Of a stretch of DNA of 64,000 bases, positions 330 to 18,896 are shown piece by piece. Position 1 is the first letter of the stretch. Each line of letters opens with the position of its first letter. Source of the DNA: a virus; IMG/VR virus record IMGVR_UViG_3300032132_000004, positions 1 to 64,000 of that record, one strand, 5' to 3'. The position numbers were made by a program, and so were the translations under genes. A model generated the notes under the pieces. It saw nothing but the letters and a program-made list of their open reading frames with translations, was not told where the DNA came from and made no database searches.

Positions 330-334
330 GATTT

Positions 335-340
335 ATTATA
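335..340 (-). promoter_or_regulatory. TATAAT box 5 nt before the ATG at 329 (possible leaderless promoter)
   Basis: On the minus strand the sequence reads CTATAATAAATC and then ATG. TATAAT is the bacterial -10 consensus, yet only 5 bases separate it from the start codon, so transcription should begin at or next to the ATG. No Shine-Dalgarno is visible. The same arrangement recurs at 2257, 14543, 14558, 15639, 15656 and 18872. Confidence 0.5.
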
Positions 341-353
341 GTGTAAAAAGAAA

Positions 354-430
354 GAGGGGGCCAATAGGAATTGAACCTATTCCTCAATGGTATTAACCAG
401 ACGATCCTGTCCGAAGACGCTCGCCCCCTC
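354..430 (-). tRNA. tRNA-like cloverleaf RNA, non-canonical; isotype not assignable
   Basis: Read on the minus strand, an 8-bp closing stem (GAGGGGGC with GCCCCCUC) encloses three hairpins in 77 bases. The last hairpin is a textbook T arm: stem AUAGG/CCUAU with loop UUCAAUU, which fits the T-loop consensus UUCRANY. The first is a tiny GUC-UUCG-GAC hairpin with a stable UUCG tetraloop in the place of a D arm. The middle one is UGGU-UAAU-ACCA, a 4-bp stem with a 4-base loop. I could not find a 5-bp anticodon stem with a 7-base loop and U33, so no anticodon can be named. CCA is not encoded. It may be a degenerate tRNA or a tRNA mimic. It lies between the lipoprotein terminator and the glycosyltransferase-like gene. 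Confidence 0.4.
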
Positions 431-465
431 TCCCTTAAATATTATAGAGAATATTTTGTGTAGAT

Positions 466-499
466 AAAAAAAGGGAGAAGAAATATTACTTCTTCTCCC
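466..499 (-). terminator. Rho-independent terminator
   Basis: On the minus strand GGGAGAAG pairs with CTTCTCCC around a short loop and is followed by a run of T. It lies directly after the lipoprotein gene (stop at 512) and would end the transcript of the replication operon before the tRNA-like RNA. Confidence 0.8.
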
Positions 500-511
500 T
501 ATAGATAGATA

Positions 512-1054
512 TTACTCTTCGGCTTCTACTTCAAGCTCTTCTGCGAAGGTTTCTTTAGTAGTTTCAGAAGAGTGGCTTGCTCCTATAGCAGATACTACGC
601 TAGCAAGTGCCCCACCCAGGTCAACGTTCTTATCAGTAGGAACGATGGCTTTAACAGCTTTGACATAGTGCTGACGCTTACGCTGGCTGAACAGAGTTAG
701 CACGCCTTCCCACGCCACAAGGGAGGGAACGAACGCTTTAGCAATACCAAAGACAGCACCTACAGCACCATCAAACGTGGAACCATCCGTAACGCCCCCA
801 GCAGCTACGAAAGCAGCACCATCTTTAAGCTGGGATTTATTGGCGATAACAACTACTGTGTCCTCACCAACCTTTTCCTTAACGGAAGCAGGAAGGTCTG
901 CGGTAGGAACAACAACTCCTACCTCTCCTTCAGCTAGTTGATCTTGTGTAGTAAAGACTGTGCCTTCTGCGAAAAACCCTCCTAGGGCCTTGCAGGACAT
1001 GAAACCAAAGCCTAGTGCGGCAGTGGCTAGTAGTGTAATAAGAATATTTTTCAT
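512..1054 (-). CDS. Small membrane lipoprotein of unknown function
   Basis: A 180-residue protein with an N-terminal lysine, a hydrophobic stretch and a likely lipobox ending at Cys21 (FMSC). This is slightly off the usual L-[AST]-[GA]-C pattern but fits a lipoprotein signal. Residue +2 is Lys rather than Asp, so outer-membrane sorting would be expected if the host uses the Lol rule. A second hydrophobic segment lies near residues 95-120 (AVGAVFGIAKAFVPSLVAW), and the C-terminus is strongly acidic. I recognise no family. It is the last gene before the terminator at 466-499, preceded by AAGG 9 bases before the ATG, directly downstream of the gp32-like gene. Phage lipoproteins in such positions can act in superinfection exclusion or lysis; either is inference only. 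Confidence 0.7.
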   Translation of the reverse strand: MKNILITLLATAALGFGFMSCKALGGFFAEGTVFTTQDQLAEGEVGVVVPTADLPASVKEKVGEDTVVVIANKSQLKDGAAFVAAGGVTDGSTFDGAVGAVFGIAKAFVPSLVAWEGVLTLFSQRKRQHYVKAVKAIVPTDKNVDLGGALASVVSAIGASHSSETTKETFAEELEVEAEE

Positions 1055-1060
1055 AAGTAA

Positions 1061-1807
1061 TTAACCTTGTAGTTTTTTGAGGTAATCATCGTCTGAGACA
1101 TCCTCTTTAGGTGCCTCAGATTCCTGAGTAGTCTCAAGGGGAACACCAATAAGGTTGCTCACCATCTTCTTCACTTCCTCATAGTCTTCTAGCTTAACAA
1201 GCTCATGAATTTCATGAAGACTATCCATTGCGGTAGCGATTTCCTTCTTCGTACCAAGAACAGTTTCTTTGGGACGAGGTTGGGACTGATCGTATTTAGG
1301 CCACTCACCTTCCATCATCTTCACAATTTTAAAATCGTGACCTGTTTCTACGTCTGTAATATCACCATAATCATCGTCTAGGATGGCTCCAATGATACTA
1401 TTGAAGAGCATTACGCCGATGGAAAGAATCTTTACTTCCTCAGTTTCTCGGTCTAGAATGTTCATGTAGTAGCGTGCGCGGGGCTTGATGACCCGTGCAA
1501 GAACTTCGTCTTCCTGCTTACCAGTCTTCCAAAGACCGAAGTAAAGGTCACACATGGGACATGCTTCCCCGTGAACCTTACGGCAGTGTACGTTCCTAAC
1601 TTCCTTAAGATTGTCAAGTGATTTAGGAACCCTGTGAATCTTAGTCTCTGCATAGAACTGAGACTCTTCATCCTTCCAAGGCATGATGCGGACGAGGTTA
1701 GATCCTTCAGGGATCTTGTAAAAGTTATTGATGAAATCCCCACCACCTTCGGCGGGTTTATTAAGTTGTTCGTGCTTTGCTCTTAGAGCGTCGAGGTCGA
1801 TAGCCAT
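1061..1807 (-). CDS. gp32: Single-stranded DNA-binding protein, gp32-like
   Basis: A 248-residue protein that coats single-stranded DNA at the replication fork and recombination intermediates. The evidence is the gp32 layout: a short basic N-terminus, an OB-fold core starting near residue 30 (NFYKIPEGSNLVRIMPW), a zinc-binding insert with His58/His74, Cys75, Cys83 and Cys86 (HC ... CPMC), and an acidic C-terminal tail (EDVSDDDYLKKLQG), which in T4 docks partner proteins. T4 gp32 is about 300 residues, so this one is compact. The start at ATG 1807 has AAGGA upstream. It sits next to the UvsY-like mediator, the natural partner that loads recombinase on gp32-covered DNA. Confidence 0.9.
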   Translation of the reverse strand: MAIDLDALRAKHEQLNKPAEGGGDFINNFYKIPEGSNLVRIMPWKDEESQFYAETKIHRVPKSLDNLKEVRNVHCRKVHGEACPMCDLYFGLWKTGKQEDEVLARVIKPRARYYMNILDRETEEVKILSIGVMLFNSIIGAILDDDYGDITDVETGHDFKIVKMMEGEWPKYDQSQPRPKETVLGTKKEIATAMDSLHEIHELVKLEDYEEVKKMVSNLIGVPLETTQESEAPKEDVSDDDYLKKLQG

Positions 1808-1825
1808 GTTTAGTTTCCTTAGTTA

Positions 1826-2257
1826 TTAGTTGTATAGTTTAGTTTCGGCTCGTTTATTAGAAGACAATTGCACCAGCATGTCTCGTTTATGTTCAAGGGA
1901 ACGAACCAATCCTTTGAGCATCTCGTATTTGAACGTAGCTTCGTTCAAGTATAATTGTTTTGTGTTGTATCTCTCGTCTGAGAAGACAAGATCATCCAAG
2001 TCTTTAGCGGTTAGCTTGACACTAGAATTACCCTTAGCTGTCTTACGGAACAGGGATGAATACTCATCAAGCTGTGTGCTCCTGTCGTTGACCATCTTTT
2101 TAGCTAGGCTCATGAGTCCGTAGTAATACGAATAAATGGAAGCCTGCTTAGACATCTCCTCCTCTACCCTATTCTCATCAAATAAAGTGAGGGCATCTGT
2201 GATGCCTTTGTAGTTGTCCCAGGTGAAATCATCTAGTGATTCTGTTAGTGTTACCAT
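1826..2257 (-). CDS. UvsY-like recombination mediator (tentative)
   Basis: A 143-residue, mostly helical protein rich in Lys, Asp and Glu, with a central YYYGLMSLAKKMVNDR helix and a C-terminal helix GLVRSLEHKRDMLVQL. Length, helical pattern and position beside the gp32-like gene match T4 UvsY (137 residues), which helps the UvsX recombinase displace gp32. Similarity is structural in flavour rather than residue by residue, so I hold it as tentative. No UvsX is visible in the window. The start lacks a Shine-Dalgarno; a TATAAT box is 5 bases upstream. Confidence 0.5.
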   Translation of the reverse strand: MVTLTESLDDFTWDNYKGITDALTLFDENRVEEEMSKQASIYSYYYGLMSLAKKMVNDRSTQLDEYSSLFRKTAKGNSSVKLTAKDLDDLVFSDERYNTKQLYLNEATFKYEMLKGLVRSLEHKRDMLVQLSSNKRAETKLYN

Positions 2258-2262
2258 GCTGT

Positions 2263-2268
2263 ATTATA
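2263..2268 (-). promoter_or_regulatory. TATAAT box 5 nt before the ATG at 2257 (possible leaderless promoter)
   Basis: The minus strand reads CTATAATACAGC and then ATG. The box-to-start distance is 5 bases and there is no Shine-Dalgarno. This would drive the UvsY-like, gp32-like and lipoprotein genes as a short operon ending at the terminator at 466-499. Confidence 0.5.
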
Positions 2269-2271
2269 GGT

Positions 2272-2655
2272 CTAGGTCTTAGATTGTTTGTTAATATTAG
2301 TTATAAATTTAGGGTCTTTTAGCTGATCTGAGTTGTTAGAAGACTTTGGGGGATTCGGGTTGGGGGCTGGGAATAGCTGCTTAAACTGTTCTGCTGTGAC
2401 CAGACAATAGGTTCCTGTTTGATCCCTTGCAACGTAGTCCCCAGGGGCTCCCTTTATCGTAGTTATTTTAGGGTCTTGGGTGCCTTGCTTTACCAAGCCA
2501 AAAGGTACACTGATTAGGAAAAAGTCCTGTTGGTCCTTGGTTTTCACTACCTCTGTAGGATAGGTGAATACCCACCTTCCTCCGATGTATACGGAAAGGG
2601 CTGTTAATGATCTGTTCCTCCTGAGGAGGATATCTTTACTGTTTATGTCTTTCAT
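2272..2655 (-). CDS. Hypothetical protein (PGDYV-type small domain)
   Basis: A 127-residue protein I cannot name. Its middle contains 'GAPGDYVARDQTG' followed by 'YCLVTAEQFKQLF'. This resembles a small domain found in many phage and bacterial proteins, in which a PGD-[YW] turn is followed by a ligand-like beta hairpin and a helix ending in F-x-x-x-Y/F. The C-terminal 30 residues are Pro/Asn/Ser-rich and probably unstructured. There are no membrane segments. It lies between the metalloprotease-like gene and the UvsY-like gene, in the same direction, so it is transcribed with the replication genes. Confidence 0.6.
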   Translation of the reverse strand: MKDINSKDILLRRNRSLTALSVYIGGRWVFTYPTEVVKTKDQQDFFLISVPFGLVKQGTQDPKITTIKGAPGDYVARDQTGTYCLVTAEQFKQLFPAPNPNPPKSSNNSDQLKDPKFITNINKQSKT

Positions 2656-2662
2656 ATATTAT

Positions 2663-3007
2663 TTAGTCTTTACTGAAGATAAACTCAAAGAGTTCTTGAT
2701 TCATAGACGCCAGGAGCATAATAGTATTAGTTGACACAGTTACAAGGAATTCGTTGGTATATTTAGGCATGTCCTCTTCCTCCTCTGGGTCCATCCCCAC
2801 TAGCTCATAAACAATATGCAGTAGCTCATGTAAAAGAGTCTGCTTGTACAGGCTTATAGTCTGCTGATTAGGGTTAAGGTACATTATACTTTCGTCAAAC
2901 TCTAACTTACCGTCTGCACCTTCCATAACCTTATGCTTAATCTCAAAGGTTCTTAGGTTAGAATGTACTACCATAGGGTGCTCAGGAATAGTTAGTTTTT
3001 TAGCCAT
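2663..3007 (-). CDS. HELLH-motif zinc metallopeptidase-like protein
   Basis: A 114-residue protein with the motif LLHELLHIVYELVG in its middle. The H-E-x-x-H pattern binds zinc in metallopeptidases, the Glu serving as general base. Around it are a predicted beta sheet before the motif and helices after it, which fits a minimal zincin-like fold. The substrate is unknown. I choose the ATG at 3007 rather than a longer frame reaching 3034. It has GGAG 6 bases upstream and lies 1 base after the helicase stop, the tight spacing seen elsewhere in this operon. Its N-terminus is then MAKKLTIPEHPM. The place among replication genes does not reveal its role. Confidence 0.7.
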   Translation of the reverse strand: MAKKLTIPEHPMVVHSNLRTFEIKHKVMEGADGKLEFDESIMYLNPNQQTISLYKQTLLHELLHIVYELVGMDPEEEEDMPKYTNEFLVTVSTNTIMLLASMNQELFEFIFSKD

Positions 3008-3008
3008 A

Positions 3009-4313
3009 TTATTCTCCAGGCAGAGGGGACTCACCTTGTTCCATCCTAAGTGTTCCGTAATCTATATCCATGTGAACGATAAAACGGGGGCGTCCGTTGC
3101 GAGACTTGATAACATAAGCTCTCATCTTACCATTATCGTACTCTTCTTCTGTTTGGTTCAGAGAGATAGCGAAATCACAAGTTCTAATCTTACCGTAGGA
3201 GTCTCCTAGTTCGGCGTCTGTAATAACCTTAACCAAGCGTCCTTGCCTGTTGGTCTGGGTAGCAGTCCATACGAGCGTCTTGTGCTCCATGCCTACCCCT
3301 CTAAGCTCCTCTGCGATGCGCTGCTGAGCAAGATACTCCTGTTGGATCTCTCGAACGGGGCGTAGGAGTTCCAGATAGTCTACGATCAGGAGGTCAGGGG
3401 TGAAGTCCTCGTAGTTCTCAAGCTGAACCAGCAGGCTACGAATGGTATTGACCGAGGCCTGTCCAGTAGGCATCTCCTTGATAACCAATTCACTACCAGG
3501 GAACTGCTCTCGGAAGAGGTCCAAGCGTTCCTTGACGGTCAGTTGGTTAGAGGATTCTTTGAGCTTCTGCTGAGGAACCAAGGTCATAACAGAATCAAAT
3601 CTCTGTGCGATCTTATCCTCGCTCATCTCCAAGGACAGGTACAGTACCTTCTTACCCTCGGTCATAGCATGAACACCCTGGTTAACAAGGTACAATGATT
3701 TACCAGTACCAGGGGGAGCGACCACCATGGCTAGTTCTCCATTCCCAAGCCCACCTTCCAGTGATTTATCAAGAGCAGGAAGGATAGTCTTGTGCTTCAT
3801 CTCTGTCTTAAGATTGAAGACTCTATCCCAACGATCTTTCACACTATTGAAGTAGTTCTGTCCTACGTTGATATCCCTGCTAACAAGGAGAGCTTTGCGA
3901 ACGAGGTCTTCTACCTCCTCTGTCCTCTCTTCCTTGATTAGCGAAATACTTTCAGCAATGGCAATTTTCATCGCCTCCTTTTTGGCGAACCCCTCGACTA
4001 GATCAAGCAGGTACTCAGGGTTGCCTACGGTGGAGGCGTCGATGTTATTGACGAGGAGTAGCTCATCCTCATAATCAGATGCGTTCTCCCTACGACCTAA
4101 AGATGATTTAACATCTTGGGTAATAAAATCATCAGTGGGAAGTTTTCCGTACTCTTTATAGTGCTCCTCTACGACACTGAAAATCTTAGAGTGAGCAGGG
4201 TACTCAAAATAATCAGCCTTAACTAGGTTTATAATCTGATGATAGAAATCCTTATTGGATTTCAATAGGTAGAGAATACCCCGTTGGATATTGTCTGAAA
4301 AATCGTAGGCCAT
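3009..4313 (-). CDS. dnaB: Replicative DNA helicase, DnaB/gp41 family
   Basis: A 434-residue hexameric 5'-3' helicase that unwinds DNA at the phage fork. Residues 1-130 form the helical N-terminal domain (typical DnaB wording such as VKADYFEYPAHSKIF). The RecA-like motor has Walker A APPGTGKS at about 199-206, Walker B LLIVDYLELL near 307, and a later arginine-finger region (AYVIKSRNGRPRFIVH). The length is close to DnaB/gp41. The gene is flanked by a zinc-ribbon protein upstream (stop and start 1 base apart) and the metalloprotease-like gene downstream. No separate primase is visible in the window. Confidence 0.93.
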   Translation of the reverse strand: MAYDFSDNIQRGILYLLKSNKDFYHQIINLVKADYFEYPAHSKIFSVVEEHYKEYGKLPTDDFITQDVKSSLGRRENASDYEDELLLVNNIDASTVGNPEYLLDLVEGFAKKEAMKIAIAESISLIKEERTEEVEDLVRKALLVSRDINVGQNYFNSVKDRWDRVFNLKTEMKHKTILPALDKSLEGGLGNGELAMVVAPPGTGKSLYLVNQGVHAMTEGKKVLYLSLEMSEDKIAQRFDSVMTLVPQQKLKESSNQLTVKERLDLFREQFPGSELVIKEMPTGQASVNTIRSLLVQLENYEDFTPDLLIVDYLELLRPVREIQQEYLAQQRIAEELRGVGMEHKTLVWTATQTNRQGRLVKVITDAELGDSYGKIRTCDFAISLNQTEEEYDNGKMRAYVIKSRNGRPRFIVHMDIDYGTLRMEQGESPLPGE

Positions 4314-4314
4314 A

Positions 4315-4836
4315 TTACTGCTGCTTTTGGGGTTTAGAAATGTCTAAAGTCTCGCTACCAATGTCCTTGTAGCCCATCTTGTTAGCTTTATCATAGGCGT
4401 CCATGGTCAATTTTTTAGACCTTTCTACCTTTTCTGAGGCCTCTTTATCTGATAGCTTACGAACCTTACCATCTTCCGCTAGCTTTTCATAATTAATAGT
4501 AGCAGATTTGTAGCGGAAAGACTCATCATCCATAGCCTCTTTAGCTTTTTTAATTTCTCGCCTTAGGAAACGATCTCCAGACTGCTTATCATACCCCTCC
4601 TCTGCGTGCTTCTGATAGCGTCTCTTAATTGTATGGAAATCATTAGCTCCTGGGTTGCTAGAGTTACCAGCACCATCATCCTTGAAGGAGATACCAATGC
4701 CTGAGTTCCTCCAGTAGCGTTCGCTAAGCTTTTTACACTTAGGACACTTGGTTTTTTGCGGAGCCTTACCTAGCTTACACTCTCTGTCCCAGAAGATACT
4801 ACAAGGCTCACAGATCCATTCATATAATGTTAACAT
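4315..4836 (-). CDS. FmdB-like zinc-ribbon protein
   Basis: A 173-residue protein beginning MLTLYEWICEPC. Four cysteines in two pairs (ICEPC and CPKC, about 22 residues apart) form a zinc ribbon like that of FmdB-type small regulatory proteins. The remaining 120 residues are charged and probably helical. The function is unknown. Its position immediately before the helicase gene is where T4-type phages often keep a helicase loader or an accessory factor. That role is conjecture, since the sequence shows no gp59-like features. Confidence 0.6.
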   Translation of the reverse strand: MLTLYEWICEPCSIFWDRECKLGKAPQKTKCPKCKKLSERYWRNSGIGISFKDDGAGNSSNPGANDFHTIKRRYQKHAEEGYDKQSGDRFLRREIKKAKEAMDDESFRYKSATINYEKLAEDGKVRKLSDKEASEKVERSKKLTMDAYDKANKMGYKDIGSETLDISKPQKQQ

Positions 4837-6867
4837 TTAAAGAATATTAAGAATACCTGTTCCTTCCAACGCATTAAGAGTTGGGGTAGATGCTCGATAA
4901 TTTAAATCACAGCTAAGGCTTGAGTTCCAAGGCAAAAGCATCCTATCTGCTACCATACCTAATGCCACAGCAGCAAAACCTCTAGCTCTTTCTGTATGTG
5001 TATCATCGTTTAGTAGTTCAACCAAAGGATCAACAGATCTTGAGTCTCCAATAAAGGCTAGAGACATTACAATAGAAGCTTGCGTAGCAGTACTCCTAGA
5101 TTCTTTGAGCATCATAACCAAGTCTGGGACTAGGGAGTAGTCTCCCATGAGCCCAAGACTTATAGCTGCCTGTTGTATTAGTGCGGGTCGGAACTTAGAC
5201 TTACCTATAATTTCTTTAATGGGTTCGATAGCTTCACGCTCATTAAGTAATCCTAAACCCACACAAATGTAGCCCTTAGTAGGACCATCACTTGTTTTGC
5301 TGAGCTTTTTTAAGAGAAGACCCTCTACATCAAAAACTCCTGCTAGTCCAGTTGCTATACAAGCAGCACCTACTCTATTAGGAGATTTTTCAGACTCCAC
5401 TCCATCTAGAAGTACTTTAGAAATAATATCAGGAACAGGTAACTGCGCCTCCCTTAAGCGATTTGATAAAACACCCAAGGAAATGTAAGCCCATGGTTTC
5501 GCAAAACTCTTACCTTTTTGAACCTGGGTGATCAGGTACTTTTGGACCTCACCAGTGCCTGCCAAGCCATCAGGCCCAGTCCCTTGCTTGCTTCCTAGTG
5601 TAGCCAATGCAATCAAGGTAAACGATCTAGTCTGCTGGTCTGACACATTAACAGGAATCTTAAATAGAGCTTTCCTAATCTTCTTATCTATCTCATCATT
5701 GTCAGCGTCACCAAGTAACCCTAAGCCTATAACACAACTCTGCTGAACTTCTCTTTTCTCAGAGCTAGTGTACGTTAGTCTGCTGAGGAACTCATTGCAT
5801 ATAACCTCTTTGTAGAGTGCGTACTCCTCTTCATTAGCGTTAGCTATAGAAAAGCTTAAGGCCTCTGGTATGTGGGCACGGACCAAGTGATTATTTCTCT
5901 CGTTCTTAAAGTAATCTAGCAAAAATCTTACCTGCTCAACCCTAGCCTCTGTATCAAGGTTAAGCAACCCTAGGGAAACTACAGCAGCAATCTTTACATC
6001 TTTGTAGCTAGATTTATCCTCTACAATAATACCTCTTAACTCTGTAGAGATACTTGCTACAACTGCTGGGTTGTCTGATTCGCTAGCGATCAACCCTAAC
6101 GCATAAACAGCAAAGGTTCTAGTACGGAATGGAACCTCGTTGGTTCTCCCTACTGCCACCCTTCCTTCTCTAGTATCTAATACCAAAGCAGTTAGCAGGG
6201 GAATACTCTCTTCCGATCCTAAAATACCTAGAGCTAAGGCAGCAGTCTCTGAAATCTCTTGATTACTATCCTTTAGAAAAGGAATAATAACAGGTACAAA
6301 ACTATCCTGCACAGTTTGATTACCTATTTTAGCTAAGGACATAAGACATCCTGTGATAATGTCATTATTGTTTTGAGTCTCTAATGAATCTAAAAGAGCA
6401 GGAATAATTTTATCTCGTATAATTAAAGGACTAACTCCAATAATATCAGATGATTGATCCTTCTCACCATGACCTAAGAAGAAATCATCTCCACCAGTAC
6501 GTGGACCTCCTTTATGGATCTTATTCTTAAGAGCTAAGTAAGGATCTTTATTAAACTCCCACCAAAAAGACCACTGAGTTAGGTCTGGGCCTCCTAAACC
6601 TGCGGGAGAGGTAGGTTTGGCAGGACCTCCTCCTGGCTGTCCTGCGGGAGAGCCAGGAGAGGCAGGACTAGGGGAGCTAGGACCAGGGGATTTAGGACCA
6701 TTAGGAGTGGGTGTAGGACCAGGGGAGTTAGGACCTCCTCCACCTCCTCCTCCACCCCCTCCAGGGGGAACGGTATCTCCAGGCCCTCTATAGGTCCCTC
6801 CATGTCCGTAAAGAGAAGGACAACATACTAACACGAAAAAAACTACTAAACTTAAAAACTTACTCAT
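4837..6867 (-). CDS. Secreted Gly/Pro-rich HEAT-repeat protein of planctomycete type
   Basis: A 676-residue protein with a signal peptide (SKFLSLVVFFVLVCCPSLYG), then HGGTYRGPGDTVPPG and a Gly/Pro/Ser-rich linker of about 80 residues. Next comes a segment with QWSFWWEFNKDPYLALK, and then HEAT-like helical repeats from about residue 150 to the end (recurring AAxxLGxLG and IPLLxxLL patterns). HEAT solenoids are protein-binding scaffolds. I remember almost the same N-terminal wording in families of secreted HEAT proteins of Planctomycetes, and know of no classical phage counterpart, so acquisition from a planctomycete host is my inference. I chose ATG 6867 because AGGAGGTGAG lies 7 bases upstream; a longer frame to 6900 would overlap the ribonucleotide reductase gene and hide the signal peptide. 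It sits inside the replication operon. Confidence 0.75.
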   Translation of the reverse strand: MSKFLSLVVFFVLVCCPSLYGHGGTYRGPGDTVPPGGGGGGGGGGPNSPGPTPTPNGPKSPGPSSPSPASPGSPAGQPGGGPAKPTSPAGLGGPDLTQWSFWWEFNKDPYLALKNKIHKGGPRTGGDDFFLGHGEKDQSSDIIGVSPLIIRDKIIPALLDSLETQNNNDIITGCLMSLAKIGNQTVQDSFVPVIIPFLKDSNQEISETAALALGILGSEESIPLLTALVLDTREGRVAVGRTNEVPFRTRTFAVYALGLIASESDNPAVVASISTELRGIIVEDKSSYKDVKIAAVVSLGLLNLDTEARVEQVRFLLDYFKNERNNHLVRAHIPEALSFSIANANEEEYALYKEVICNEFLSRLTYTSSEKREVQQSCVIGLGLLGDADNDEIDKKIRKALFKIPVNVSDQQTRSFTLIALATLGSKQGTGPDGLAGTGEVQKYLITQVQKGKSFAKPWAYISLGVLSNRLREAQLPVPDIISKVLLDGVESEKSPNRVGAACIATGLAGVFDVEGLLLKKLSKTSDGPTKGYICVGLGLLNEREAIEPIKEIIGKSKFRPALIQQAAISLGLMGDYSLVPDLVMMLKESRSTATQASIVMSLAFIGDSRSVDPLVELLNDDTHTERARGFAAVALGMVADRMLLPWNSSLSCDLNYRASTPTLNALEGTGILNIL
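6622..6648. repeat. 27-bp exact repeat, copy 1 (second copy at 40610-40636)
   Basis: The 27 bases encode PAGQPGGGP in the linker of the HEAT-repeat protein. An identical stretch, in the same reading frame, occurs in the 915-residue virion protein 34 kb away. Confidence 0.9.
6753..6774. repeat. 22-bp exact repeat, copy 1 (second copy at 40441-40462)
   Basis: The 22 bases encode TVPPGGG just after the signal peptide of the HEAT-repeat protein. An identical stretch in the 915-residue virion protein encodes the same peptide. Confidence 0.9.
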
Positions 6868-6868
6868 T

Positions 6869-8755: not shown

Positions 8756-8757
8756 AG

Positions 8758-11329: not shown

Positions 11330-11985
11330 AAAGCTTTCCAGCTAACAGGGAATAGTTCTTCCATAATCTTACCTATAGCTTTAGCATACTCCTGGGTTTC
11401 AAGCTGAGTGTGAGGGTCTGTTCTTTGTGTGAACATATGGTGCCAACCTAGTAGTGTTCCCGTTGTAACTGTTGTGGTGTACATAGATTGGGGCAGGACC
11501 ATACGAGCTTGCTCTGGGCAAACCCCCATCTCTAATAAATTTGAATACTCTTGCAAAGCATATTTGTTTGCTATACCAACGCGAACTCTAGCATTGGTAT
11601 TCCCTCCCTTTGGTTCTTCATTAATAGATCCCTGTTTCACATTATTTGGTCTAGCTCTAAACTTCCAAGGAATATAAAACTCAGGCTCTGATTTAATGTA
11701 CCTACGAGATACCTCACTCCAACTGAACCCCACTTGATGCTTGCCTATCTGTCTTAGTACGAACAGAGGAGCGACGATTCTAATAGTAGCACTAGGATGA
11801 CGGAAGGGAAGTAAATGCTTATGCTTTGCCAAGTAATTAATAAGCTTTGCATCTTTGTCATTCTCAAATATCTCATGTGCTTTATCAAAGGAACACCTAG
11901 CAGCATTTACTACAAGTAGATCACCTTTACAGGTGCTACTTATTAACTCCACTGATCCCCTGTCTAGTACTTTAATATTTACCAA
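11314..11985 (-). CDS. thyX: Flavin-dependent thymidylate synthase
   Basis: A 223-residue enzyme making dTMP from dUMP with FAD, NADPH and methylene-tetrahydrofolate. The signature region at 79-96 reads RQIGKHQVGFSWSEVSRRY. The classical R-H-R triad of the ThyX motif is here K-H-Q, a variant I recall from other phage ThyX proteins. The downstream ARMVLPQSMYTTT segment (usually LP ... T) and the flanking helices also fit. The start codon appears to be TTG at 11985 inside the end of the polymerase gene (7-base overlap), with AAGGAAG upstream. The neighbouring NrdJ and ThyX point to phage control of deoxynucleotide supply. Confidence 0.9.
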   Translation of the reverse strand: MVNIKVLDRGSVELISSTCKGDLLVVNAARCSFDKAHEIFENDKDAKLINYLAKHKHLLPFRHPSATIRIVAPLFVLRQIGKHQVGFSWSEVSRRYIKSEPEFYIPWKFRARPNNVKQGSINEEPKGGNTNARVRVGIANKYALQEYSNLLEMGVCPEQARMVLPQSMYTTTVTTGTLLGWHHMFTQRTDPHTQLETQEYAKAIGKIMEELFPVSWKALCQHS

Positions 11986-13046
11986 GCTGTCACTTCCTTA
12001 CAGTTACCAAAATTGGTACCTACTTCGATGTCGATGTCCAAGGGAATGTCGAAGTGGATGTTGAAGATCTCTTTCACAAGAGGGTAGTGTACCATTTCAT
12101 GATAGATGATGTCGAGCATTTGTTTCTCCTCTTCTTTGGGACAAACTGCTTCGATGCTGTCATGCACCGTAGCGACTGCGTATCCTTGCAGCCCTTCCTC
12201 CTCGATTCGTCTATCAATACCAAGTAGAACGGTCATTAGGATATCAGACGCAGGACTTTGGATGGTGAAGTTCAACCCTTGTCTCAGGGATCTGTTAACT
12301 ACCTTGAAGTCTCTACTGCATACGTTGGGAAGGTTCCTTGTGCGACCGAAAATAGAGTAGGCGTATCCGTTCTCTTTGATATAATTATTTACGAACTCCA
12401 TGTAAGAGAAGATGCCTGGGTAGACGTTCTCGTAATCCGCGATAATCTTTTTAGCTCTGGGTAGAGAGATCCCCATAGTCTCACTAAGGTTGAACGCTCC
12501 TCCTCCGTACACGATCAAGAAGGATACTGTCTTGGCGATCTGTCTCTCTGTCTTTGTGATCTCCTTCTTGTTGAACAGGAGCTTACCAGTATATGTGTGG
12601 AGGTCAGCACCTTGGTTGAAGGCAAGCTGCATGTTACCCTCCTTCGCAATGTGTGCTAGGATTCTAAGCTCCATAGCCTTGTAGTCGGCAGCAATAAAAG
12701 ACCAATTTCCAGGGGCTTTATACAGGCTACGAATGTTATTCTCTTTCTCCCTGGGTAGAGTGTGAAAAGAAACACCCATAGCTTCCTTAGCTTTGTAAGA
12801 AGCACAGGACAGTCGCCCAGTAGCAGTACCGTCGAAGTTATATACCATGTACACCTTATTGTGTCCGTTGTATGCAATAGCCTTCTTTGTACCAGTGATA
12901 TAAGTTTTGGTTAGCTTCTCAGACTTACGAAGATCCAACAAGCCTTGCAGGAACTTCTTTGTGTTGCGTAGATCATCCGTACTCTTACCAGCTAGGACTT
13001 CCTTACTGATTCTCTTTCCTTCGTCTCTGTATTTCCAGTTAACCAC
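11979..13046 (-). CDS. DNA polymerase family A, polymerase domain (third piece of a split enzyme)
   Basis: A 355-residue protein carrying the palm and fingers of a Pol I-type polymerase. TGRLS is at 76-80. Motif A has Asp121 (AADYKAMELR). The fingers O-helix RQIAKTVSFLIVYGG lies at 168-182, with Phe at the position of E. coli F762. Motif C is VHDS at 294-297, where the usual second acidic residue (Glu883 in E. coli) is replaced by Ser. The exonuclease and UDG-like parts are encoded by two separate genes upstream. It starts at GTG 13046, overlapping the previous stop by 8 bases, and a GAGGAG site lies upstream. The +1 offset relative to the middle piece is described in the findings. Confidence 0.88.
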   Translation of the reverse strand: MVNWKYRDEGKRISKEVLAGKSTDDLRNTKKFLQGLLDLRKSEKLTKTYITGTKKAIAYNGHNKVYMVYNFDGTATGRLSCASYKAKEAMGVSFHTLPREKENNIRSLYKAPGNWSFIAADYKAMELRILAHIAKEGNMQLAFNQGADLHTYTGKLLFNKKEITKTERQIAKTVSFLIVYGGGAFNLSETMGISLPRAKKIIADYENVYPGIFSYMEFVNNYIKENGYAYSIFGRTRNLPNVCSRDFKVVNRSLRQGLNFTIQSPASDILMTVLLGIDRRIEEEGLQGYAVATVHDSIEAVCPKEEEKQMLDIIYHEMVHYPLVKEIFNIHFDIPLDIDIEVGTNFGNCKEVTAW

Positions 13047-13515
13047 GTTTCTCTAGCTCCTCATTAGTTTGTTCCAGAAGGATCTTCAAAGTGGGGGCAG
13101 ACACTGAGGGCTTTCCTTTAGTTGTCCTGTCGGGAGGATACAACTCCAAACCTCCTTCTCTGGTGTACAGGATATCCATAAGGTCACCACCTGAAAGGTT
13201 ATCTGTTTTTAACACACCATCGCACTCATAAAGAAGGTCTTCATCTTCAATATTCTTAGTCTTCAAATGCCTACCCACAGAGTCTAGGTTCTCCGTAGCA
13301 ACATCCAAGCCTACGAACTCCTTCTGTGCGAAGGTATTAAGGGAAGGCATAAGGACATGCTCAATGAGCTTCATAACAGGTTTGCCCTCAAGCTTCTCCA
13401 TTACCAGATCAAACAGCTTGAGTGTGAAGTATGTGTCGAAGGCATTTCCTTCTGCACAATCAGACAGGGACATCTCATCCCATTTGAAAGTTTTAGGATT
13501 AGAAATCGTAAGCAT
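13039..13515 (-). CDS. DNA polymerase family A, middle piece (exo III and thumb region)
   Basis: A 158-residue protein that looks like the link between exonuclease and polymerase domains of Pol I. It begins MLTISNPKTFKWDEM. Asp27 in EGNAFDTYFTLKLF matches the third exonuclease metal ligand. The tyrosine normally 4 residues before it is Gly here. Then come helices of the polymerase thumb (LIEHVLMPSLNTFAQKEFVGLDV). It ends GVLKTDNLSGG ... SVSAPTLKILLEQ, typical of the thumb tip before the palm. On its own it would lack catalytic residues, so it must assemble with its neighbours or be joined to them by frameshifting. Its ATG overlaps the preceding stop as TAATG, with GGAG 8 bases upstream. Confidence 0.8.
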   Translation of the reverse strand: MLTISNPKTFKWDEMSLSDCAEGNAFDTYFTLKLFDLVMEKLEGKPVMKLIEHVLMPSLNTFAQKEFVGLDVATENLDSVGRHLKTKNIEDEDLLYECDGVLKTDNLSGGDLMDILYTREGGLELYPPDRTTKGKPSVSAPTLKILLEQTNEELEKRG

Positions 13516-14543
13516 TAAAGACTCTCCAACTCTCCAGCAAAGTATAGTTTAACAAGATCCATCAGGCTTCCAGGCATGTTCTCATCTAATTGATGGTGCA
13601 TAACCTTAGTGTCCCAAGGGTTGGTTACTTTGATTCCGTAGTTCAGAAGGAACTTCAGGTCAAACTTAGCGTTGTGAAATACTTTCCTTGCAGGACTCCT
13701 CATAATAATCCTAAGGAAATCTCTTAGACTAAGCCACTTAGAATTTAATACCTCCCCCTTTTTAAAAGGACTATCTTTGTGGTCAACAGGAATAACCCAT
13801 GTCTCTTCTCTGCATGAGATAGAGATGGTCATGATCTTATCCGTAAGGAAGTTCAGTCCTGTAGTCTCAAGGTCTACAGCGAGGTCATCAGTGTAGTTTT
13901 GAAGCTTCTCAGCAAGAGCAGAAACCTCCTCCAAATTCATCAACACAGAGTAGTTAAAGTTACCCTCGGTCTTCTTGCCTAGGATATACTTCTCGTAGGC
14001 ATTCTGAATGTCTCTCTGGAAGAGAGGAAGGTGAGCAGGCTCTTTGATACAAGCATAAGGATGGAAGAGCGGAACTACAGTGCAGGTATTCCCATTTTCA
14101 GTTGTGTATTGGTAGGCCTTACCTCGCTTACTTGTAATTCCACTCTTTTTGATCAACATTTTCATAGCCATGTTACCACAGGGGAACACTAGCTTAGGCT
14201 TCACCTTATCTATAGTAGCCTCTAGGTGTACCCGACAGATCTTCATATCGTTAGAGGTCATGTCTGCCTCTCTAACGTCAGGGCACTTGACAGAGGCTGC
14301 TGTTACGAAGTCCTCTGAATAACTCTCCTTGATGAGCTTGAGGGACTGGGGCATAAAAGCTACGGTCGAACCATGCTTGTAACTTAGAGAATCAGATAGG
14401 AATAGGACAGGAGACTCCCTAAGTTCTTCGTAATCCATGTGAGAATGGCACGGTTTGTTTTTACTTAGGATGGTACAGCCTTCGCAGAGAGGGTTATCCC
14501 CCTGCATCTTACTGTCACTATATAAATTGTTAAGATCAAACAT
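13515..14543 (-). CDS. UDG-like Fe-S domain fused to 3'-5' exonuclease (first polymerase piece)
   Basis: A 342-residue protein with two domains. Residues 1-190 resemble family 4/5 uracil-DNA glycosylases: Cys20, Cys23, Cys87 and Cys103 have the spacing of their 4Fe-4S ligands, VFPCGNMAMKML follows, and a late HP motif is at 161-162. The family's catalytic G-E-A-P-G loop is replaced by FLSDSLSYKHGS, so glycosylase activity is doubtful. Residues 220-342 are the DnaQ-type proofreading domain of Pol I, with exo I Asp224 and Glu226 (AVDLETTGL) and exo II near Asp295 (FHNAKFDLKFL). Exo III is in the next gene. Such UDG-polymerase fusions occur in other phages. The start has no Shine-Dalgarno but a TATTAT box 4 bases upstream. 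Confidence 0.85.
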   Translation of the reverse strand: MFDLNNLYSDSKMQGDNPLCEGCTILSKNKPCHSHMDYEELRESPVLFLSDSLSYKHGSTVAFMPQSLKLIKESYSEDFVTAASVKCPDVREADMTSNDMKICRVHLEATIDKVKPKLVFPCGNMAMKMLIKKSGITSKRGKAYQYTTENGNTCTVVPLFHPYACIKEPAHLPLFQRDIQNAYEKYILGKKTEGNFNYSVLMNLEEVSALAEKLQNYTDDLAVDLETTGLNFLTDKIMTISISCREETWVIPVDHKDSPFKKGEVLNSKWLSLRDFLRIIMRSPARKVFHNAKFDLKFLLNYGIKVTNPWDTKVMHHQLDENMPGSLMDLVKLYFAGELESL

Positions 14544-14546
14544 GGC

Positions 14547-14552
14547 TATAAT
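14547..14552 (+). promoter_or_regulatory. TATAAT box 5 nt before the ATG at 14558
   Basis: The plus strand reads CTATAATATGGT and then ATG of the sigma-like gene; no Shine-Dalgarno is present. It shares its core with the divergent box at 14548-14553. Confidence 0.5.
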
Positions 14553-14553
14553 A
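14548..14553 (-). promoter_or_regulatory. TATTAT box 4 nt before the ATG at 14543
   Basis: The minus strand reads TATTATAGCC and then ATG; no Shine-Dalgarno is present. The box overlaps the oppositely directed TATAAT of the sigma-like gene (14547-14552), so one AT core would serve both divergent starts. Confidence 0.45.
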
Positions 14554-14557
14554 TGGT

Positions 14558-14899
14558 ATGAAGAACCACTACATCGACAACGATAGGTTTGAGGAGATCA
14601 TCCTATCATACCAACGGGACCCAGAAACTTACGAGGAAGATCTAGTATCTTTATTCGATGTGCTTATTACCAACATCATAGAATCTTTTAAGTTCAAGGT
14701 AGACTCGGGAGACGCCAAGCAGGAATGCTTCATTCTGGTTCTTAAGACAGTTAAGAATTTCAAACCTAGAAAGGGCACAGCCTTCAACTACTTCACCACT
14801 ATCATTATTAATAACTTGAAGCTTCTCTACACTAGAGAGAAGAAGTACAACAAGAAGATAGAGAACTACATTGAAAGAAAGAAGGATGATTTTATTTAA
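14558..14899 (+). CDS. gp55: Late-transcription sigma factor, gp55-like
   Basis: A 113-residue protein, the only small regulator type I recognise here. Its C-terminal half has the sigma region 2 pattern: KQECFILVLKTVKNFKPRKG, then FNYFTTIIINNLKLLYTREKK, corresponding to the F-N-P-x(n)-F-F-T-x-I stretch of T4 gp55, which binds RNA polymerase core and reads the AT-rich late promoter TATAAATA. It lacks region 4, as gp55 does; T4 gp55 is about 185 residues, so this one is smaller. It is on the plus strand, divergent from the polymerase genes, and its end overlaps the convergent thioredoxin-like gene by 8 bases. It may be what reads the TATAAT-like boxes in this window. Confidence 0.75.
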   Translation: MKNHYIDNDRFEEIILSYQRDPETYEEDLVSLFDVLITNIIESFKFKVDSGDAKQECFILVLKTVKNFKPRKGTAFNYFTTIIINNLKLLYTREKKYNKKIENYIERKKDDFI

Positions 14900-15227
14900 G
14901 GCCCAGCTTATCTATCACTAAGGATAGGTAATCAAGAGACTGTACTTTATTGTTGGTTACTCGTACCAAGTGGGGAAGCTTTGTGGTATTGTAAATAACA
15001 AAGCTGTGAGGCATGTGGTAACTATCCACAATGTAAAGAGGTTGCAGCATATCAGACTCAGAACAAAGCGCACCCTCGTACTGCTCCTTAAGCTGGTCGA
15101 TCAGCTTATTACAGTACTCATCCCACAAGGATACAAAGAGTACTGTAAAAGGCTTCCTATTAGCCTTGTTAGATTTTATGATCTTGTTCAGATCATTTTC
15201 CTTCTTAAGGAAGTGTAATTTGTACAT
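14892..15227 (-). CDS. Thioredoxin-fold protein without the CxxC motif (tentative)
   Basis: A 111-residue protein whose order of elements looks like thioredoxin. A beta strand FTVLFVSLW is followed by DEYCNKLIDQLKEQY (the helix that normally carries W-C-x-x-C, here with one Cys), then a LYIVDSY strand and a cis-proline-like MPHSFVIY, then LPHLVRV. With a single cysteine at the active site it would not be a dithiol reductase. It could be a structural or binding version, like the processivity partner in T7, but nothing here shows that. It is adjacent to the sigma-like gene (8-base convergent overlap) and follows the next small gene by 1 base. Confidence 0.4.
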   Translation of the reverse strand: MYKLHFLKKENDLNKIIKSNKANRKPFTVLFVSLWDEYCNKLIDQLKEQYEGALCSESDMLQPLYIVDSYHMPHSFVIYNTTKLPHLVRVTNNKVQSLDYLSLVIDKLGLK

Positions 15228-15228
15228 T

Positions 15229-15639
15229 CTAAGCTTCGTGTTTAGAGATGTCTTCGGATGTAATAACGCTTTCTTCTATAATAGGAGCACCAGACAGTTC
15301 TGATTCAATCAGATTTGTGTCTGCGAGTTTAACGTTTCCGTCCTCGTCCTCAATAACAGTGATACCTGAGGCAGCAAGCTCTTCCTTGTTTTCAGAAGCG
15401 TACTTCTGCATCAAGCCTGCAAGCTGCTGGTTCATGGCTTCAATGCCAGTAACAAAAACAACTCTAATGAACTCTTCTGAGGAAGTTCCCTCGGGCTTTA
15501 CTACAGCCTCAAAGTTCTTAAAAGAGGTTGCCTCGTCCTTCGATAGTTTAATTGATAATTTCATACGTCCCTTACTCCGTTCATCTGATCTAATTTTCCA
15601 AGTACTTACGTCTAGTTTAATTGAGTTCTCGGGTTCCAT
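15229..15639 (-). CDS. Hypothetical protein
   Basis: A 136-residue acidic protein of no family I recognise. The first half is charged with basic patches (KIRSDERSKGRMKLSIKLSK); the second half is acidic and Glu/Ser-rich, probably unstructured, ending ITSEDISKHEA. There are no membrane segments or cysteines. It is transcribed with the thioredoxin-like gene. Its start has no Shine-Dalgarno and a TATAAT box 6 bases upstream, facing the divergent nuclease gene. Charged small proteins near the sigma gene in T4 include gp33-type co-activators, but I see no motif for that. Confidence 0.6.
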   Translation of the reverse strand: MEPENSIKLDVSTWKIRSDERSKGRMKLSIKLSKDEATSFKNFEAVVKPEGTSSEEFIRVVFVTGIEAMNQQLAGLMQKYASENKEELAASGITVIEDEDGNVKLADTNLIESELSGAPIIEESVITSEDISKHEA

Positions 15640-15644
15640 CTTGC

Positions 15645-15650
15645 TATTAT
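15645..15650 (+). promoter_or_regulatory. TATTAT box 5 nt before the ATG at 15656
   Basis: The plus strand reads CTATTATAGTAT and then ATG; no Shine-Dalgarno is present. It is divergent with the box at 15646-15651. Confidence 0.45.
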
Positions 15651-15651
15651 A
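15646..15651 (-). promoter_or_regulatory. TATAAT box 6 nt before the ATG at 15639
   Basis: The minus strand reads CTATAATAGCAAG and then ATG. It shares its core with the plus-strand TATTAT box (15645-15650) that precedes the nuclease gene. Confidence 0.45.
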
Positions 15652-15655
15652 GTAT

Positions 15656-16183
15656 ATGTCTACAGAAATTAATGATGATTATGATATTTCTTCACTAAAG
15701 AAGAAAAAGAAAAAGAATAGTAGAGCCAAGGGCAGCACCTTTGAAAGGGATATTGCTAAGCTACTTAATAAAAGATTCAATACATCCACCTTTGCAAGAA
15801 CACCTGGGTCAGGAGCCTTTGCTTCTACCCATACCTTACCAGAGCACCTACAAATCCATGGAGATCTAATCACTCCTGCTAACTTCAAGTATTGTCTAGA
15901 GTGTAAGAAGGGGTACAACAAAGAGAGCCTATACAGTCTATTCAATTATAGCTCAGACACATGGAAGTTCATTGAGCAAGCTGGGAAAGATGCGAAGAGA
16001 GCAGGAAAAGTACCCATGGTAATATTTAAACAAGATAGACGAGAAATATTAGCAATCGTGCCCTCTTATATTATATACTTAAATAACTTAAAGAGTATAG
16101 AGATACAAAAAGAAGACAGTAAGTATAGAATATACCTTCTAAAGGATCTACTTAAAGAGGAAGACTATGCTTGGATTGATTGA
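15656..16183 (+). CDS. PD-(D/E)XK nuclease, putative Holliday-junction resolvase
   Basis: A 175-residue basic protein. After a lysine-rich N-terminus it shows KGSTFERDIAKLLNKRF, ARTPGSGAF, HGDLITP and YCLECKKGY. The Glu of FERD, the Asp of HGDLI and the E-x-K of LECKKG in this order are the catalytic pattern of PD-(D/E)XK nucleases, and the G-S-G-A-F element is typical of phage resolvase-like members of the family. It likely cuts branched recombination or replication intermediates before packaging. It is on the plus strand, and its 3' end overlaps the convergent 906-residue gene by 32 bases. Confidence 0.75.
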   Translation: MSTEINDDYDISSLKKKKKKNSRAKGSTFERDIAKLLNKRFNTSTFARTPGSGAFASTHTLPEHLQIHGDLITPANFKYCLECKKGYNKESLYSLFNYSSDTWKFIEQAGKDAKRAGKVPMVIFKQDRREILAIVPSYIIYLNNLKSIEIQKEDSKYRIYLLKDLLKEEDYAWID

Positions 16184-18872
16184 GAATAGATTCTAATAGA
16201 TTCATCTGTCCTCTAAGGAATTGATGGAGTGTGCTCTCTTCTTGCTCCTTTTCAAAGGTCTTCGCATGTTCTACTTTCTTAGCAATTTTAGAAGCCTGAT
16301 CCTTTCTAATTTTCCCTGACATAGTTGCATTACCTTTAGATCTTTCTAGATTAACTTGGTATTCAATATCTTGCATCGTGCCAGTAGCATCCTTACATTT
16401 AAACTTAAACACATAGGTTAGTCCTCTAGGTTCAATTACTAATGGATTACCCTTACTCGTCCTGGCTTTTCCTATAGCCCTAAGAATATCATTCTGGTTA
16501 AGAACCATAGTATGACCTTCTACTGATTCTTGGGTTACTATCTGCCCAAGTTCAGACTGCTCCATGATAGTAGCCCCAGCCATCTTACAAAGAGCATCTC
16601 TAGCTCCTTTCTTTTTAACAGGATCATCGCTTTTTAAATCTGTTGAAAGTGTGTGTCGTATGTAATCTCGTTTTAAAGCTTCTTCAGCTTTCTTTCTAAG
16701 CTTTTTTGCTTTTGGAGTATCTCCTTCAAGAGATACTCTCTCTCTTATAGTTTTAGGGTTATCATCACTTACCTCAGAGGTAGGATCGTAGTTCTTGTTA
16801 GGGACTTCTTTTGTACATATCTTATAAAAAAGGGAACCTTTTTGTCCATACTCAAAGTTAGCAATAGCGAACTTGGCAACAGCGGTTGCGGCTAGGGATG
16901 GATCAGTGACCTGAAGAGTTCCATTCTCATCTACATACCTTGCTCTTTCTGATATAGAATCAAGAGTATTATAAGTAGTTTGAATATCTCTAAGGTAGTC
17001 AGAAACAGATGTATCATCTTCAGCAAAACCTAAAGAGGAAACGTTGAGCTTTTCGTAAAAATCTTTCTGATTAGGAGGTAGGCTTGCGCCTGTTAGTACA
17101 TCTCCCATAGCTATACTAATAGCTCTGTCAAGGGAAAGATCTCCAAACTTAATAGTATTACCTCTAGATAATTTATTCCCTGCATTTAATAGATGTATTT
17201 CTATTTCATTATTATCAATACTAATCCCTAGATTATTTAAAGATGCTTCTATATTAGGTTTGAGTGTTTTTGATGCATTATAATACCAGCCCGAAGGAGA
17301 TAGGGACGTAACATTATCTTTTGTCAAAAGAAGCTGTCCCGCATTCTTCTTAGCACGCCCCAAACCTTCTTCTCCTTCATAAACGAAAAAGTTATCTACT
17401 TTACCTGCAAGCGTTTGTGCTCTACCTCCCGCGACAATCTCATCAGCTTCCAGCGCATGTATTAATGACGCAGTTTGCACCATCATATTTTGGAATAGAG
17501 TTTTGACTTTTTGGATATCTGATAAAGCAGTAAGTTGCTTGTTTACTTCCGACACAGTAGGATATGCTTTAATATCAATAGCCATATCTGCCATAGGAGT
17601 GTTCCCAGCAAATGTTGTTAGTTCTTTTTTAGTTTCCTTTAGCTCATTACTGAATGAGTCTAATGCCTGTTCCAGAATTTCCTTTTTGTTTGTTCTTAGA
17701 GAAGATAGCACACGCACCATTACTCCCATAAACGATTCGTTGAAGCGTCCCTTTGTTTCGTTTTCTGCATTAGTTCCTGGGAACTTATGCTGCTCAAGAT
17801 CACAGTTAAAACTGTCCAGCATAGCTTTATGAAAGCTTCCCTTTTCTAAAACAACACCTTCAACACCAAACTCTTCATCGTTATTAAGATTTTCAGCACG
17901 ATCAGTAAAAAGAACTATCTTGTTACTACCAACTAATCCCACTCTTTTCTTTACTTCATCGCAATTAGCATTTCCTTTTGGATCTAAACTAGTAGTCATT
18001 AACTCCAAAAGTTCGAGATTAGTCTTGAAGACATCAAGGTACATCTCTTCCCCAATATCTTCTTTAATCATATTACCTGATGCATCAAAACCAGCAAAAC
18101 CTACCCCATGAAATAGTTTTGATTCTATACTCTTTTTATTAGAGCCTCCAATATACTGAAGCATATTGACATCGCCCTTGCAGATATAATCTGGTAGACC
18201 TCGCACTGAGCCTTCTTCATCCTCAGTATCATCGCCGCACAACTCTTTCAGCTTTCTCATAGCTTCTTGCTGTACCCCTATTATATCATTAGCCAATGAA
18301 GCTAACTCAGGTTTACTATTTATTAAAGACCCTAGGGTATTTAATCTTTTCTGAAGGAGTTCTTCCTCACGTTCCTGTCTGATATGTTCAGTAACGTCCG
18401 CATCTATATCTGCTTGCCCCTCCATAAAGTATTTAATTAATTGCTTCCATCCCTTAGAATCCGTAATCGGAGTTCCATCTGCCTTAGCTAGTGCCATAGG
18501 CCGTTGAGCACCAAAGACTAGACTTATACTTGCAGCTACTATAGGTTGTTGGGGATCTTCTTGGTCAGTCTTAGCCTGATCGGCGTCACCAGTCACAATC
18601 TTATTCCCCACCACTCTTCCCTTTTGGCTAGGGTGCCTTATAGGGGTTTCATAAGCATATGGCTCTCCACCCTTTACTGCAAACTCGACAACATCAGCAT
18701 AACTTTTGCCCTCACCATCAGCAATAACTTTTTTAGCCTGTTCCTCAGCGGCAGCCAGCTTCTCTGGGTCTTCCCCAGACTTCTCCTTATCTTCCTCACT
18801 AAGATAAGTAAGCTTAAACTTCCTTTTCTTAAGTCTATCGTAGCTCTCTAGTAGTTCTGAGAAGTAGTCCAT
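16152..18872 (-). CDS. Large protein of unknown function (possible virion-internal protein)
   Basis: A 906-residue, soluble, Lys/Glu-rich and mainly helical protein with no motif I recognise, no signal peptide and no membrane segments. It has an N-terminal charged part (SEEDKEKSGEDPEKLAAAEE), a middle region with short Ala/Leu-rich helices, and a C-terminal tail of basic helices (KIRKDQASKIAKKVEHAK). It stands alone after the tail-tube gene and its terminator, with its own TATAAT box 5 bases before the ATG, so it is expressed as a separate unit. Size and position recall virion-internal or ejected proteins of large phages, but that is inference. Its end overlaps the convergent nuclease gene. 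Confidence 0.65.
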   Translation of the reverse strand: MDYFSELLESYDRLKKRKFKLTYLSEEDKEKSGEDPEKLAAAEEQAKKVIADGEGKSYADVVEFAVKGGEPYAYETPIRHPSQKGRVVGNKIVTGDADQAKTDQEDPQQPIVAASISLVFGAQRPMALAKADGTPITDSKGWKQLIKYFMEGQADIDADVTEHIRQEREEELLQKRLNTLGSLINSKPELASLANDIIGVQQEAMRKLKELCGDDTEDEEGSVRGLPDYICKGDVNMLQYIGGSNKKSIESKLFHGVGFAGFDASGNMIKEDIGEEMYLDVFKTNLELLELMTTSLDPKGNANCDEVKKRVGLVGSNKIVLFTDRAENLNNDEEFGVEGVVLEKGSFHKAMLDSFNCDLEQHKFPGTNAENETKGRFNESFMGVMVRVLSSLRTNKKEILEQALDSFSNELKETKKELTTFAGNTPMADMAIDIKAYPTVSEVNKQLTALSDIQKVKTLFQNMMVQTASLIHALEADEIVAGGRAQTLAGKVDNFFVYEGEEGLGRAKKNAGQLLLTKDNVTSLSPSGWYYNASKTLKPNIEASLNNLGISIDNNEIEIHLLNAGNKLSRGNTIKFGDLSLDRAISIAMGDVLTGASLPPNQKDFYEKLNVSSLGFAEDDTSVSDYLRDIQTTYNTLDSISERARYVDENGTLQVTDPSLAATAVAKFAIANFEYGQKGSLFYKICTKEVPNKNYDPTSEVSDDNPKTIRERVSLEGDTPKAKKLRKKAEEALKRDYIRHTLSTDLKSDDPVKKKGARDALCKMAGATIMEQSELGQIVTQESVEGHTMVLNQNDILRAIGKARTSKGNPLVIEPRGLTYVFKFKCKDATGTMQDIEYQVNLERSKGNATMSGKIRKDQASKIAKKVEHAKTFEKEQEESTLHQFLRGQMNLLESILNQSKHSLPL

Positions 18873-18877
18873 AGTAC

Positions 18878-18883
18878 ATTATA
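18878..18883 (-). promoter_or_regulatory. TATAAT box 5 nt before the ATG at 18872
   Basis: The minus strand reads CTATAATGTACT and then ATG of the 906-residue gene; no Shine-Dalgarno is present. It lies directly downstream of a strong hairpin (18897-18928), so this is the clearest isolated promoter of the series. Confidence 0.5.
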
Positions 18884-18896
18884 GCTAAGTACAACA

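Follow-up and report, generated by a model that had tools for sequence, protein, structure and literature searches.

The stretch of DNA analysed here, called the window, is 64 kb (positions 1 to 64,000) of the 73,033-bp IMG/VR virus contig IMGVR_UViG_3300032132_000004, and the remaining 9 kb of the contig were also analysed. Its gene content shows the contig to be a distant T4-type myovirus. The T4-type gene set includes a gp32-like single-stranded DNA-binding protein, tail tube and sheath, head protease, NrdA and SbcCD-like proteins, the contig also encodes a protein weakly similar to UvsY, and the major head protein is about 29% identical to those of T4-type cyanophages. With a 24-kb stretch as query, no relative at the DNA level was found among 50,697 phage records. 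The subject of the analysis is an eight-base box, CTATNATA, which lies directly before several start codons in the first part of the window and is a candidate promoter element. Spacings are counted from the C of the box to the first base of the start codon, so that C+12 denotes a start 12 nucleotides (nt) after the C. The boxes and the genes next to them are the following:

334..341, minus strand: box CTATAATA of a glycosyltransferase-like gene (ATG at 329), C to A 12 nt
440..447, minus strand: box CTATAATA, preceding a structured non-coding RNA at about 348-435 (minus)
2262..2269, minus strand: box CTATAATA of a UvsY-like gene (1826-2257, ATG at 2257), spacing 12 nt
14546..14553, plus strand: box CTATAATA of the sigma gene, spacing 12 nt
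14548..14553, minus strand: TATTAT, the sigma box read backwards, preceding the 14543 gene (uracil-DNA-glycosylase and polymerase-exonuclease)
14558..14899, plus strand: sigma-region-2 protein, 113 amino acids (aa), from Pfam, AlphaFold and Foldseek
15229..15639, minus strand: gene of unknown function, 136 aa, leaderless spacing kept in 17 relatives
15644..15652, both strands: palindrome CTATTATAG/CTATAATAG, serving 15639 (minus, C+13) and 15656 (plus, C+12)
15656..16183, plus strand: PDDEXK / RusA-like nuclease gene, orthologues mostly leadered
16152..18872, minus strand: conserved gene of unknown function (MDYFSELL...), 906 aa, many relatives in the clade
18877..18884, minus strand: box variant CTATAATG of the 906-aa gene (ATG at 18872), spacing 12 nt

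The original prediction had listed seven TATAAT or TATTAT hexamers, 5, 5, 4, 5, 6, 5 and 5 nt before the ATG codons at 329, 2257, 14543, 14558, 15639, 15656 and 18872. All seven are present with these spacings, a Shine-Dalgarno (SD) sequence is absent at each of the starts, and CTATAAT is common to five of the boxes. However, they occupy only five physical sites, two of which are read on both strands, and the pairs 14543/14558 and 15639/15656 are not independent because TATAATA on the opposite strand reads TATTATA. The hexamer is also too narrow a description, since the functional unit appears to be the 8-mer CTATNATA. The suggestion that one AT core may serve both genes of a divergent pair is supported by a 9-bp palindrome, CTATNATAG, at 15644-15652, of which there is a second copy at contig positions 68795-68803. 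The minus-strand box at contig position 68803 is a leadered one and belongs to a baseplate-hub gene that lies upstream of a large capsid-tail operon. The box at 18872 has a final G where the motif has A. That of the 14543 gene is the weakest of the seven, with an A in place of the fixed C (ATATTATA) and a position one base too near the start.

Distribution of the box in related contigs

The 14558 sigma protein has 127 relatives among the IMG/VR candidates, and 80 of these were fetched. Nine further long contigs were added, and removal of redundancy from all data left 40 related marine contigs with 1.12 Mb in total, on which the clade-wide counts are based. Genes in these contigs were called by a simple longest-open-reading-frame rule, and some gene starts are therefore approximate.

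In the 73-kb contig itself, TATWAT stands 4-6 nt before 7 of the 63 called starts, as compared to a mean of 0.42 and a maximum of 4 in 2000 shuffles of the upstream regions. Of all ATGs in the contig, 0.6% have a box at this spacing. A plain search of the whole contig for TATAATN4-6ATG gave 7 matches and the reversed control 5, which is what a chance product of AT-rich intergenic sequence might give, but the start-anchored count is far above the shuffles. The signal lies in the location of the boxes at gene starts and in their conservation in relatives.

In the related contigs, an unbiased count found CTATAATA and CTATTATA to be the most over-represented intergenic 8-mers, seen 96 and 88 times with 2.4 and 2.8 expected. 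The density of CTATNATA is 3.06 per kb per strand in intergenic sequence as compared to 0.133 within genes, a 23-fold enrichment, and the box lies 11, 12 and 13 nt before the start in 4, 73 and 24 genes, respectively (101 in total). Sixty permuted motifs of the same composition gave on average 0.4 start-adjacent matches and at most 2. This refutes chance as an explanation, and we give it practically no weight.

Because orthologues are not independent, the number of families is a safer measure than the number of genes. If the split variants of the 906-aa family are counted as one, about 15 unrelated gene families have the box, including the sigma, 906-aa, 127-aa, 159-aa, UvsX (4) and UvsW-like helicase families. 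Before the sigma start, most relatives have CTATNATA with the centre base free and all others fixed, and the spacing is 11-14 nt in 33 of 36 orthologues. Box and spacing are retained even in contig L029, where the flanking sequence is wholly different. When 31 orthologues of the 906-aa gene were aligned on the ATG, with no motif imposed, the columns of the box were almost invariant and the bases from the box to -1 varied, -1 being T or C in 30 of them. The conserved protein N-terminus of this family starts at that ATG. The 906-aa gene is conserved throughout the clade, always with its own leaderless-type box, and the protein has no PHROG or Pfam match and none in named phages.

It had also been claimed that most other genes carry an SD sequence, which is overstated. 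With an anti-SD energy below -5 kcal/mol as the measure, 48% of the box-less genes in the related contigs have one, as compared to 14% of random sites. No conserved column was observed around -35, and a TGn extension is absent upstream of the box. After masking of CTATNATA, the search for other late-promoter motifs returned only poly-T, start-region, AT-rich and SD-like words. The T4 box TATAAATA was tried as promoter and rejected, with 3 intergenic matches, no enrichment and no fixed spacing; CTATNATA is found in its place.

Inferred transcription start and leader classes

The spacings fall into two groups, with few genes between them. The first group, at about 9-16 nt, is without an SD sequence, and the second, at 23 nt or more, has the SD strength of ordinary genes. 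The mean anti-SD energy is +0.7 kcal/mol in the 10-16 nt group, where the box itself occupies much of the tested stretch. The leadered group includes the PDDEXK nuclease (24-27 nt), gp32 (34-44 nt), terminase (30 nt) and baseplate hub (23-40 nt) genes.

C+12 is the most purine-rich column of the leadered box genes, with 90% purine, or 92% averaged over 20 families. The value is 97% without the RNR family, which was excluded post hoc, after the data had been seen; the figure is therefore given both ways. The boxes of this family, at 38-49 nt and within the upstream gene, are probably due to chance. Leaderless genes that start at C+12 have a pyrimidine at C+11 in 73 of 73 cases. A pyrimidine before +1 is the usual bacterial initiator pattern. 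The purine at C+12 and the pyrimidine at C+11, both independent of the spacing, suggest that transcription starts at C+12, and such a start would fit the geometry of T4 late promoters, with the box about one helical turn upstream.

The choice of start site in bacteria is flexible and spacings of 13-16 nt exist, so a real promoter might start mostly a few bases or more upstream of the ATG and give short leaders without an SD sequence. We regard this as improbable in view of the bases at C+12 and C+11, and a start upstream of a C+12 ATG would be unusually near the box. It is still more improbable that the box is an operator or a translation signal and no promoter at all. Its palindromic form in divergent pairs and its place next to start codons could be taken that way, but the box is also found before leadered genes at 23-45 nt, before a structured RNA and before a tRNA (in G018 its C lies 14 nt before tRNA-Ile), and the late box of T4 type in the cultured phage HTVC008M is placed with this same geometry. 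The boxes before tRNA and structured RNA therefore speak for a promoter and not for a translation signal.

We consider it likely, with a probability of about 0.8, that CTATNATA is a lineage-specific promoter class of marine T4-type phages which gives leaderless mRNAs at part of its genes. The box would act as a -10-type element without a -35 partner, and RNA synthesis would begin about 12 nt past the C. At a first set of genes, C+12 or sometimes C+13 coincides with the A of the start codon, which would leave no leader and no room for an SD sequence, and the mRNA would be translated from its 5'-terminal AUG. At a second set the same promoter would give a leader of about 10 nt or more, often SD-bearing and just enough for a ribosome site, and a palindromic box could drive two divergent genes. 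On this reading, leaderless mRNAs would be made for genes of recombination, for that of the phage sigma and for conserved genes of unknown function. The leaderless class that the original prediction had proposed for the seven starts is strongly supported by the sequence of the 40 related contigs, except that the 14543 box probably does not act as such a promoter here.

Some observations weigh against a leaderless promoter class. In the 14543 family the spacing is 9-13 nt, and some members are too close for a leaderless start from this box. The box is missing from most members of some families, for instance UvsY, where 1 of 7 has it, and the capsid gene is without a box. Of the 36 sigma relatives, three do not have a spacing of 11-14 nt (two are at 16-18 nt, one is a truncated gene call), and some further sigma relatives have no box at that place.

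Two genes of the window appear to have changed from one class to the other. The glycosyltransferase-like gene at 329, which extends beyond the window edge, has orthologues with the same box at a spacing of 26-46 nt, and the box in this genome therefore represents an apparent leadered-to-leaderless switch. The orthologues of the nuclease gene at 15656 mostly start at C+24 to C+27; here C+24 is ATT, the start is an in-frame ATG at C+12, and the gene appears to have switched from leadered to leaderless. The geometry of the box would correct gene starts in cases such as these two.

Some other features of these loci were also observed. A conserved GGAAGGCATCTGTCTTGGGTG lies directly 3' of the box before the glycosyltransferase-like gene in L128 (G001 3775 minus), L153 (G002 22725 plus) and L133 (G018 22600 minus), and it may be read as a leader or a small RNA. 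The stretch with the structured RNA at 348-435 (minus) has a fold of -37 kcal/mol and a perfect 9-bp closing stem. Its T arm is of the tRNA type (GGTTCAATTCC), whereas an anticodon arm is not clearly present, and the RNA is preceded by a CTATAATA box of its own. It was rejected as a tRNA, as ARAGORN and the Rfam gathering thresholds found nothing and tRNA-Sec matched only weakly, with 19 bits. At 11979-14543 (minus) the family-A DNA polymerase, in a T4-type phage, is split, with the uracil-DNA-glycosylase domain and the 3'-5' exonuclease in one gene and the polymerase domain in a separate gene. L001 has head-to-tail protein repeats of the LSAEGTTIVDTLHVSNS type at 11745-12095; the long gene that contains them lies at the end of the contig and is possibly a tail fibre gene.

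Candidate reader of the box

The 14558 protein matches Pfam Sigma70_r2 with an E-value of 4e-5 and 23.7 bits, slightly under the curated cut-off of 24. Its AlphaFold model has a pLDDT of 88, and Foldseek matched the model to sigma region 2 structures including T4 gp55 (7d7c_F, TM 0.65), with no E-value below 0.001. At the sequence level there is no PHROG match, and gp55 was not matched when PDB sequences were searched with a profile. T4 gp55 is 185 aa and thus longer than the 14558 protein. The proteins of the clade (110-121 aa) end shortly after region 2, and the hydrophobic and acidic C-terminal clamp-binding segment of the gp55 type is absent. Their C-termini show no clade-wide conservation, and only the closest relatives have a DDFI/DDLI-like ending. 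A search for a gp45 clamp in the relatives came out empty, and so did its control. The idea of a gp55-like phage sigma as the reader is plausible as far as the sigma-region-2 protein goes, but the clamp-binding tail of gp55 is lacking. In the comparison with named phages the sigma protein had one match, at 33%, in a 595-kb metagenomic phage. The G010 sigma relative is also found on a 130,604-bp contig filed under the Prochlorococcus single-cell genome AG-409-P03 (L061/G010, L204), which is a hint to the host but no proof.

It is conceivable that the leaderless promoters are read by the primary sigma of the host, as early or middle promoters, and that the phage sigma has another target. In favour of this, the bacterial -10 consensus is TATAAT, many genes of the regulon serve recombination and replication, the sigma gene itself belongs to it, and in bacteria whose starts lie next to a TANNNT the main sigma does the reading (PMC12340547, PMC3898074). 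We hold this to be unlikely, though it is the strongest of the alternatives. The box has neither a -35 nor a TGn extension, the C preceding TATNATA is kept in nearly all orthologues, and no second promoter motif was found that the phage sigma could read. For these reasons, and because its own gene has the box, we somewhat favour the 14558 protein as the reader. Host core RNA polymerase would then work together with a phage sigma-region-2 protein whose gene is part of the regulon. We are more tentative about the wider proposal of a dedicated phage system, in which a tail-less factor consisting of sigma region 2 only would read a partly bidirectional CTATNATA and supply a regulon of recombination and replication genes with leaderless mRNAs, as one case of a recurrent strategy of marine T4-type phages that involves two boxes and would let the phage bypass SD-dependent initiation during infection. 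This is possible, but we would not call it probable.

Comparison with known promoters and phages

The late promoter of T4 has an 8-bp box at -13 to -6 (PMC2988020), and its sequence TATAAATA works with gp55, gp33 and gp45 (PMC2988020, PMC7892883). The promoter proposed here is similar in that a T4-type phage with a gene for a sigma-region-2 protein has an eight-base -10-like element without a -35, and in that the box would lie about 12-13 nt before the transcription start. It differs in sequence, CTATNATA as compared to TATAAATA, and in a sigma without the clamp-binding tail of gp55 (PMC2988020). Genes of T4 carry leaders with an SD sequence, whereas the C+12 genes of CTATNATA are predicted to be leaderless. 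Where a T4 box was paired with a called ATG start, the distance was always at least 20 nt, and never 13 nt.

The use of leaderless promoters had been thought new in a T4-type phage. We found no description of leaderless T4-type late promoters in a literature search, the coverage of which was poor for subscription journals, but the same geometry is present in three cultured marine T4-type phages. The Pelagibacter phage HTVC008M has 8 T4-type boxes exactly 13 nt before an ATG, which is +1 by T4 numbering, and 5 of these 8 ATGs match annotated starts, including those of baseplate and DNA-end-protector genes. Mosig has 6 such boxes and Melnitz only 3. As in the clade, the box of these phages would put +1 on the A of the ATG, beside a second, leadered group of genes; the difference is that they use the canonical NATAAATA at 13 nt and the clade CTATNATA at 12-13 nt. 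A comparable class of box-adjacent ATGs was not found in S-PM2, Syn9, P-SSM2, Cr30 and phiM12. With the cultured HTVC008M, Mosig and Melnitz, leaderless phage mRNA becomes directly testable.

A study of pelagimyophages failed to find middle and late promoters (PMC7029224). The spacing from box to ATG is a usable new criterion for finding phage promoters. The present sequence evidence names a promoter motif for an uncultured clade that is present in scores of IMG/VR contigs.

Leaderless genes adjacent to TANNNT are known from Deinococcus-Thermus and Mycobacterium (PMC12340547, PMC3898074). What they share with the genes of the clade is a -10 element immediately upstream of the start codon, the lack of a -35 and a leaderless mRNA, the last predicted in our case. 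Those are bacterial genes that depend on the main sigma, whereas here the regulon is that of a phage, its 8-base motif is stricter, and leadered genes belong to it as well. In bidirectional bacterial promoters, a symmetric AT core serves both strands (PMC12825309, PMC10268837). The palindromic boxes resemble them in having one symmetric AT core, but here both outputs are coding genes of the phage, and one or both of them would be leaderless. The textbook picture of T4 late transcription is leadered and SD-driven, and what we present is evidence at the sequence level that relatives of T4 in the ocean fuse the promoter with the start codon.

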